In this document: positions 1,524-9,302 of the stretch, in pieces
Position numbering within the stretch: the stretch's first letter is position 1
Layout: each line of letters begins with the position of its first letter
Origin: Betaproteobacteria bacterium
Lineage (GTDB): Bacteria; Pseudomonadota; Gammaproteobacteria; Burkholderiales; UBA9220
Direction of reading: 5' to 3'
DNA: 18,272 bases
NCBI GenBank assembly: GCA_020061285.1
Contig: JAGUYQ010000221.1
Coordinates: forward strand, 1-18,272
Notes under the pieces: generated by a model
What the model was told of the DNA's origin: nothing
The model's database searches: none
What the model saw: only the letters and a program-made list of their open reading frames with translations
Translations under genes and position numbers: made by a program

Positions 1524-1615
1524 GGAGAGGTGCCGGAGTGGTCGAACGGGGCAGACTCGAAATCTGTTGAACACCTCGCGGTGTTCCGAGGGTTCGAATC
1601 CCTCCCTCTCCGCCA
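1524..1615 (+). tRNA. tRNA-Ser(CGA)
   Basis: A class II tRNA with a long variable arm. The acceptor stem pairs GGAGAGG (1524-1530) with CCTCTCC (1605-1611), followed by discriminator G1612 and an encoded CCA (1613-1615). The anticodon stem is GCAGA/TCTGT, with loop CT-CGA-AA; the CGA anticodon at 1558-1560 reads UCG. The variable arm contains a self-complementary ACACC/GGTGT stem, and the T arm has the usual GGTTCGAATCC. The gene opposes mltF and is the nearest RNA gene to the dif-like site downstream. Confidence 0.97.
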
Positions 1616-1628
1616 AGCAGAATTTTTC

Positions 1629-1666
1629 ACAACGGCCCTGGTAGATTCATCGCTCAGGGCCGTTGT
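1629..1666 (+). terminator. Hairpin downstream of tRNA-Ser, probable terminator
   Basis: A perfect 12-bp inverted repeat: ACAACGGCCCTG at 1629-1640 and CAGGGCCGTTGT at 1655-1666, with a 14-base loop. It begins 14 bases after the tRNA CCA. The stem is strong, but the following T tract is weak (CATTATGCCCATTATTTT), so it may stop transcription inefficiently or serve as a 3' processing signal. It separates the tRNA from the dif-like site. Confidence 0.5.
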
Positions 1667-1679
1667 CATTATGCCCATT

Positions 1680-1707
1680 ATTTTACATAATATACATTAT
1701 GCGAAAT
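1680..1707 (-). other. dif: dif-like XerC/XerD recombination site
   Basis: Read on the minus strand, the site has left arm ATTTCGCATAA (1707-1697), central region TGTATA (1696-1691) and right arm TTATGTAAAAT (1690-1680). E. coli dif, as I recall it, is GGTGCGCATAA, TGTATA, TTATGTTAAAT. The match is 8/11 in the XerC arm, 6/6 in the centre and 10/11 in the XerD arm. In proteobacteria XerC and XerD act here with FtsK to resolve chromosome dimers at division, so one copy per chromosome at the terminus is expected. The site lies in a 209-base non-coding gap between two hairpins and is therefore shielded from transcription. A degenerate site used by a Xer-exploiting mobile element is the alternative, but no element is visible nearby. 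Confidence 0.85.
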
Positions 1708-1824: not shown

Positions 1825-2274
1825 TTAGCTGGCACCGAGCACGGAGACCGTAATGTCGGCGGTAACGTCGGTGTGCAAAGCCAGGGTGACCGGGTAGTCG
1901 CCGATGGCCTTCAGGGGGCCGTTGGGCAGACGAATCTCGGCTTTGCTCACTACGGAGCCCTGCTCGGTCAGCGCTTCGGCGATGTCGGCGTTGGTGACGG
2001 AGCCGAACAGTTTGCCGTCAACACCGGCCTTGCGGGTGATTTGAAGCGTGTAACCTTCTAGCTTCTCGGCACGGCCTTGAGCGTCGGCCAGCTTCTCGGC
2101 CTGGATTTTTTCCAACTCAGCGCGGCGGGCTTCAAACTCAGCCATGTTGGAGGACGTGGCGCGCTTGGCTTTTCCCTGAGGGATTAGGAAATTGCGTGCA
2201 TAGCCATCCTTGACGCGAACTACATCGCCCAGTTGCCCCAGGTTGGCCACTTTTTCGATCAGAATGATTTCCAT
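1825..2274 (-). CDS. rplI: 50S ribosomal protein bL9
   Basis: A 149-residue protein, the normal length for bL9. The N-terminal RNA-binding domain opens with [36 protein letters not shown], the family signature. A charged connecting helix follows (about 45-75), then the C-terminal domain. L9 binds 23S rRNA near the base of the L1 stalk and helps maintain reading frame and subunit maturation. The start is well fixed by an AAGGAGG Shine-Dalgarno about seven bases upstream. It is the last gene of the operon, 12 bases after rpsR, with an intrinsic terminator just beyond its stop. No unusual feature is apparent. Confidence 0.98.
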
Positions 2275-2286
2275 GAGTGTGCCTCC

Positions 2287-2556
2287 TTAGTGCAGGTCGG
2301 TGTAAGGCAGCAGAGCCAGGAAACGGGCACGCTTAATCGCGACACCCAACTGACGCTGGTATTTAGCCTTGGTTCCGGTAATCCGGGACGGGATGATTTT
2401 GCCGTTCTCGGCGATGAAATCCTTCAGCAGGTCCAGGTCTTTGAAGTCGATTTCTTTAATGCCTTCTGCGGTGAAGCGGCAGTATTTACGACGCTTGTTG
2501 AAGCCGGAACCGCCGCGCTTGGGGCGATTGGGCTTTTTGGTATCTTTGCGAGCCAT
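2287..2556 (-). CDS. rpsR: 30S ribosomal protein bS18
   Basis: An 89-residue basic protein with the bS18 core [42 protein letters not shown] followed by [22 protein letters not shown]18 forms a heterodimer with S6 and binds the central domain of 16S rRNA on the 30S platform. The N-terminal extension (residues 1-20) is rich in Lys, Arg and Gly, as is usual in proteobacteria. Its ribosome binding site (AAAGAGG) lies inside the last codons of priB, and only two bases separate the priB stop from the rpsR ATG. Translation of the two genes is therefore probably coupled. Confidence 0.98.
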
Positions 2557-2558
2557 AA

Positions 2559-2864
2559 TTAACCTCTTTCGATCAATCTAATACTTTTCACATGGAGCAC
2601 CAGTCTGTAGCTGGTGCGACTTTTCTGGGCCATGAAGCCGGTGATTTCCACTAAGTCGCCGATCCTATTTTTCCCTGCGGCTTCCGCTGCATCCGCCACC
2701 GCCATCACGGGGACTTCGCACTGGACTTTGCGTCGCTGTCCCGCTTCGGCTTGTTCCGAATCGTGGCTGAGGGTAAAGGTGAGTATCGGCAATCCGCCCG
2801 GTGTATAGCGCAGGGGAGCGATTTCGCTGATCCTGCCGCACAGGGCGACGTGGTTGCACTCCAC
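2559..2864 (-). CDS. priB: Primosomal replication protein N (PriB)
   Basis: A 101-residue single-domain OB-fold protein, the usual size for PriB. Recognisable parts are [25 protein letters not shown] near the N-terminus and [27 protein letters not shown] at the end. PriB is related to single-stranded DNA-binding protein. It bridges PriA and DnaT or ssDNA to reload the replicative helicase at collapsed forks. The start codon is GTG at 2864, three bases after the rpsF stop, with no good Shine-Dalgarno, so initiation probably depends on ribosomes finishing rpsF. Its position between rpsF and rpsR is the classical beta/gammaproteobacterial arrangement. A short SSB-like annotation is the only plausible alternative. 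Confidence 0.93.
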
Positions 2865-2867
2865 CGT

Positions 2868-3254
2868 TTAGGCGGCTGCTTCTTCCGCCTTGGCTTCGGA
2901 GCCACTCTCGGAAGGCTGGAGCACTGACTTGGCCTTTTCTTCCCGCATCATGGGGGACGGCTGAGTCGCGGCTTCCTTCTTGCTCACCGTCAGGTGGCGC
3001 AGGACGGCGTCGTTGAAGCGGAAAGCATGTTCGAGTTCTTCCAGGGTTTCCTGGTCGCACTCGATGTTCATCAGAACATAGTGCGCCTTGTGAATTTTCT
3101 GGATCGGATAGGCCAGTTGGCGGCGGCCCCAATCTTCCAGGCGGTGAATCTGGCCGCTACGACCGGTAACCATGCCGCGATAGCGCTCGATCATACCGGG
3201 CACTTGTTCGCTCTGGTCGGGGTGAACAATGAAAATGACTTCGTAATGGCGCAT
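2868..3254 (-). CDS. rpsF: 30S ribosomal protein bS6
   Basis: A 128-residue protein beginning [25 protein letters not shown] and containing [26 protein letters not shown], both typical of bS6. The ferredoxin-like core ends near residue 95. The remaining tail, about 30 residues, is rich in Ala, Glu, Lys and Ser and looks unstructured, as in other proteobacterial S6 proteins whose C-terminus receives poly-glutamate. S6 pairs with S18 on the 30S platform. A clear AAGGAG Shine-Dalgarno lies eight bases before the ATG. It is the first gene of the operon, with a promoter about 115-140 bases upstream of the start codon and a leader that may bind the S6:S18 complex. Confidence 0.98.
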
Positions 3255-9110: not shown

Positions 9111-9302
9111 TCAAGAAGGGTTGGCCAGATACAGCAGCAACAGGCCCCCTAGCATTGACGTCATGCCGACGAAACGCAATTGCCCGTCGGAAAATTCAAC
9201 CATTTTGCGGAATGTCTGGCGCCACGCGGCTGGGGCAAGGAAGGGCAGCAAGCCTTCTATCACCAACATCAGCGCCAGAGCGTTCAGCAAATTTCCACTC
9301 AT
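9111..9302 (-). CDS. DUF2065 family small inner-membrane protein
   Basis: A 63-residue protein with two hydrophobic segments (about 5-22 and 43-60) flanking a short polar loop, WRQTFRKMVEFSDGQLRFVG. This matches the DUF2065/YjeT family, whose biochemical function is not established. Its ATG overlaps the hflC stop by four bases (ATGA), so it is almost certainly translated with hflC. The conserved position after hflK-hflC suggests a role at the same membrane complex, which is an inference from context. The second segment, MTSMLGGLLLLYLANPS, ends at the C-terminus. Confidence 0.88.
   Translation of the reverse strand: MSGNLLNALALMLVIEGLLPFLAPAAWRQTFRKMVEFSDGQLRFVGMTSMLGGLLLLYLANPS

Follow-up and report, generated by a model that had tools for sequence, protein, structure and literature searches.

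A 28-bp site between tRNA-Ser and rplI that is almost certainly the chromosomal dif of a Gallionellaceae-like betaproteobacterium

The space between tRNA-Ser and rplI in the stretch of betaproteobacterial DNA analysed here (the window, 18,272 nucleotides) raises the question of whether a near-palindromic 28-mer within it is the chromosomal dif site, as the initial annotation had claimed. We found the 28-mer, ATTTCGCATAATGTATATTATGTAAAAT, at the stated position (1680-1707, minus strand), and comparison with the Escherichia coli dif sequence printed in PMC3025954 gave identity at 24 of 28 positions, the same figure as that claimed. The 6-bp centre and the inner arms, described earlier as intact, are both identical to the printed E. 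coli site, and the proposed outer extension of the dyad is present, with arms at 1679-1691 and 1696-1708 that are 85% complementary. The site shows the structure of its class, being 28 bp long with two 11-bp imperfect inverted arms flanking the 6-bp centre. A search of the window with a two-arm dif pattern, allowing up to 3 mismatches, returned this single place, while shuffled sequences (n = 200) gave a mean of 0.00; a second row at the same position is the other-strand reading of the same near-palindrome and not an extra site. In light of these features and of the comparisons with related genomes described below, we regard the 28-mer as almost certainly the chromosomal dif of a Gallionellaceae-like betaproteobacterium. 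The features of the locus are listed here, with the arms of dif assigned by homology and the layout of arms and centre following that given in PMC2731167.

24..1439, minus strand: mltF-like lytic transglycosylase (SBP_bac_3 and SLT domains); the open reading frame extends to 1616, and the start at 1439 was chosen
1524..1615, plus strand: tRNA-Ser(CGA), the left neighbour of dif (1524-1612 in Rfam)
1629..1666, plus strand: hairpin in the space from tRNA-Ser to dif; its 12-bp stem is perfect and no T run follows
1680..1690, minus strand: putative XerD arm of dif, TTATGTAAAAT
1691..1696, minus strand: centre of dif, TGTATA, 6 bp
1697..1707, minus strand: putative XerC arm of dif, ATTTCGCATAA
1774..1802, minus strand: hairpin resembling a terminator, closing the rplI operon (our own reading)
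1825..2274, minus strand: rplI (ribosomal protein L9)
2287..3254, minus strand: rpsR, PriB-like single-stranded DNA-binding protein and rpsF, forming with rplI an rpsF-priB-rpsR-rplI cluster

No non-coding gap is longer than the one that holds dif (1616-1824, 209 nt) by our reading of the open reading frame list, in agreement with the initial annotation, once a DUF2065 gene is counted; this gene lies at 9111-9302, within a rival 215-nt gap between hisZ and hflC. The two hairpins said to bracket the site were also found, with stems at 1629-1640/1655-1666 and 1774-1781/1795-1802. Because a T run follows it on the minus strand, we take the hairpin at 1774-1802 to terminate the rplI operon, and similar hairpins were seen by eye after rplI in the two most similar loci, L001 and L002. 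A terminator scan that allowed loops of 3-8 nt listed neither hairpin; the exact arms here stand 14 and 13 nt apart. The stretch 1616-1680, which contains the hairpin with the 12-bp stem, had a z-score of -4.9. Rfam searches of 1400-2400 at the gathering threshold returned nothing besides the tRNA. The spacing between rplI and dif in the window is 117 bp.

Two repeats at the site were also noted. An 8-bp direct repeat, CATTATGC, occurs at 1667-1674 and 1695-1702, with one copy inside dif and the other 28 bp off. Separately, both the window and genome G002 have a repeat of GGCATAAT immediately beyond the XerD arm, which was considered as a possible extra half-site. By eye, this repeat is absent in G001, G003, G004 and the other flanks inspected, and we therefore treated it as chance.

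We then examined how the site is distributed among related genomes. Each of the four genomes of the family of G002 contained one match to the dif pattern at up to 3 mismatches, with no second copy in either G001 or G002. Across the order, 262 of 399 genomes were matched at this threshold, 259 of them once and three (G022, G081 and G314) twice, as read from the table. A reversed-pattern control matched a single genome of the 399 (G019). No match at 3 mismatches was found in the remaining 137 of the 399, which may be a mixture of incomplete genomes and genomes with more diverged sites. The 26-bp core of the window dif is identical to the single matches in G003, G103 and G117.

The neighbourhood of the site was compared with that in the closest relatives. 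The rplI gene of the window is 91% identical to that of L001 (Proteobacteria bacterium SKS4.bin89) and 89% identical to that of L002 (Gallionellaceae bacterium UBA2239, genome G002), and 10.5 kb of the window aligns to these loci at 84% and 82%, respectively. In L002 the gene order is rplI, lexA, imuA, imuB, dnaE2, dif, tRNA-Thr, tRNA-Ser(CGA), mltF and serS, where lexA, imuA, imuB, dnaE2 and serS were named by reading the translations, and its dif matches that of the window at 25 of 28 positions. The lexA-imuA-imuB-dnaE2 segment (L002 10597-16416) resembles a mutasome cassette for SOS mutagenesis, and separates rplI from dif in this genome. The dif of G001 matches that of the window at 27 of 28 positions and has rplI on the same contig, 28.6 kb off. 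The interval between them is occupied by a 28,454-bp Tn3-type transposon (G001:C56:61084-89537; L120, L121) with inverted ends and a Tn3 transposase, flanked on both sides by the 5-bp target duplication AACAA. Among its genes are those for two RND efflux pumps, a heavy-metal P-type ATPase, a two-component system and a tyrosine recombinase. Subtracting the transposon brings rplI and dif of G001 to about 134 bp from each other, a spacing close to that in the window, and the hairpin that follows rplI is conserved. The contig of G001 ends on the other side of dif, and on another contig (C35) tRNA-Ser and mltF come about 400 bp after the start; since dif stands at a contig end, the order dif-tRNA-Ser-mltF in this genome is only inferred.

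Outside these genomes, rplI and dif were not seen close together. On the dif contigs of G003 and G004 (8.4 and 12.4 kb), no mltF, serS or tRNA was found; a search for rplI gave nothing in G003, and placed it on a different contig from dif in G004. Among 72 rplI loci (best 40 of 73 rows), with flanks that reach 10 kb at most and in many cases less, a good dif-like 28-mer was present in L002 only, the next best reaching 19 of 28 positions. Where both lie on a single contig, they are 47 kb apart in G365 and farther in the other cases. The window and its two closest relatives are thus the only places where rplI and dif were seen in close neighbourhood. Among the papers searched, none joined a dif site and rplI, and none joined dif, Gallionella and the terminus.

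These comparisons bear on other explanations of the site. Dif-like sites are carried by filamentous phages, as described in PMC3025954, and the insertions seen at this neighbourhood in G001 (the transposon) and G002 (the mutasome-like cassette) could be taken to mean that the 28-mer was left by, or serves for the attachment of, a phage or other element using XerCD, or that it resolves plasmid dimers, in place of being the chromosome's own dif. However, the window dif is directly flanked by housekeeping genes and a tRNA, with no element genes and no second dif-like site in the window, and at an E-value of 1e-5 neither the phage nor the plasmid collections contained a match to the 215-bp intergenic region. 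The match in each of G001 and G002 is a single one and lies in the same neighbourhood. We therefore consider an origin of this kind very improbable. 

Still less credible is a promoter or other transcription signal whose likeness to dif is accidental. Four sigma-70-like hexamer pairs were found in 1200-2400 where 0.5 were expected, and three of them overlap dif (two on the plus strand and one on the minus strand), but these hexamers are partly a consequence of ATAAT in the dif arms, and it is the complete two-arm site, extending beyond the hexamers, that is found throughout the order, mostly as a single copy in each genome. That the 28-mer is an old, inactive dif with a working copy elsewhere is likewise barely plausible: the searches for further copies covered relatives, but the arms and centre fit the dif class, and neither G001 nor G002 has another copy within 3 mismatches.

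We utilized GC skew to place the site relative to the replication terminus. Within the window the skew is weak, with no clear switch. On the 188,934-bp contig of G002 that carries dif (G002:C65), the cumulative skew is maximal at 116,078 and dif lies at 123,746, a gap of 7.7 kb. Mean skew is +0.026 to the left of dif and -0.028 to the right, so that its sign changes across the site. Permuting 1-kb blocks 20,000 times never produced a difference of this size, and with 5-kb blocks the fraction that did so was 0.00045. The initial reading of the 28-mer as the XerCD/FtsK site is thus supported, as the sequence is that of a dif, and the corresponding locus of G002 carries the only dif of that genome (up to 3 mismatches), close to the skew maximum of its contig.

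Distances between dif and dnaA were determined in other members of the order. Among the matches listed, 43 dif matches lie on contig C1, of which 30 were chosen by eye and the remaining 13 were taken up afterwards; 29 genomes (26 + 3) with dif and dnaA both on C1 were kept, and 14 were left out because dnaA was on another contig. With genome sizes rounded to 0.1 Mb, and C1 not necessarily the whole chromosome, the circular distance was at least 0.44 of genome length in 21 of the 29 and at least 0.37 in 27, six of these falling between 0.37 and 0.44. The exceptions were G216 (0.07) and G314 (0.27). The corresponding counts in the first subset (n = 26) were 20 and 24, and the three later cases, worked by hand, gave 0.41 (G194), 0.42 (G378) and 0.47 (G268). 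Taken together, the results from relatives suggest that dif is placed at the terminus.

Five relatives were searched for the recombination machinery. XerD scored over the cut-off in all five, while XerC did so in four and the FtsK gamma domain was found in four, G003 being the miss in both cases; beyond its XerD gene, G003 gave only partial or weaker matches, and FtsK gamma was not found there. We also examined the FtsK-orienting sequence KOPS, GGGNAGGG. KOPS point toward dif in 55 of 87 cases in G002, 21 of 28 in G001 and 7 of 7 in the window (pooled, 83 toward and 39 away), with the count in the window also tied to the coding strand. Among octamers of the same composition, the bias of KOPS ranked 20 of 56 (68% vs 66% pooled). 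Since other 6G+1A octamers are biased alike, we dropped KOPS polarity as independent support; the bias fits a strand switch at dif, and not KOPS as such.

An ftsK gene was observed near dif in G002, where a 764-aa open reading frame with an FtsK gamma domain (116,142-118,436) lies 5.3 kb from the site (L112-L113, G002:C65:116142-123773). It is followed by open reading frames of 202 and 435 aa, which agree in order and length with lolA and rarA, and then by serS and mltF. The same order from ftsK to mltF occurs at the head of C35 in G001 (L124, G001:C35:403-7605), where the open reading frame carries FtsK domains, and by the inferred order of contigs ftsK is probably about as close to dif in that genome. 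Only 23 bp of the window lie beyond the mltF stop, which leaves ftsK out of view there. In 26 other members of the order, the nearest ftsK was within 25 kb of dif in two (G367 and G253, with 2 and 3 matches, respectively) and more than 25 kb away in 24, with G365 at 934 kb. According to PMC3025954, xerC is mostly near dif and xerD near the origin, with ftsK mostly between them; among the matches listed in our literature search, no title on linkage of ftsK and dif was found. We take the closeness of ftsK and dif to be chance synteny, unless a wider count differs. It is unlikely that this lineage keeps its dimer-resolution site and the motor gene together (ftsK-lolA-rarA-serS-mltF-tRNA-dif in G002) because their closeness is useful, for example because the terminus is segregated last or remains close to the septum.

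By analogy with the family of dif sites, XerCD binding, FtsK dependence and recombination may all be inferred for the window dif. XerC would occupy the left arm of the site and XerD the right arm. FtsK, located at the division septum, would pump the terminus region toward dif and then activate XerD, and the two recombinases would exchange strands between both dif copies of a chromosome dimer, giving monomers. The site points to where replication ends in a little-known betaproteobacterial lineage, whose fragmented genomes can be ordered with it as a reference point. In addition, the space between rplI and dif is a place of large insertions in two relatives.

The window dif is an ordinary one of an already known type, and leaves views of Xer recombination unchanged. 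It departs from the E. coli site in PMC3025954 at positions 1, 2, 4 and 24. Agreement is closer with four sites taken from the table of betaproteobacterial dif sequences in PMC2731167 (Carnoy and Roten 2009): 27 of 28 positions for Methylobacillus flagellatus, and 26 of 28 each for Thiobacillus denitrificans, Nitrosomonas europaea and Bordetella pertussis. The sites of M. flagellatus, T. denitrificans and N. europaea have the same arms and centre as that of the window; the one or two differing letters fall at positions 2, 7 or 24. Other betaproteobacterial sites in that table, such as that of Burkholderia mallei, look more diverged. The sites of M. flagellatus, T. denitrificans and N. europaea and the window dif are also alike in lying near the skew maximum, as seen for the latter in its relatives.
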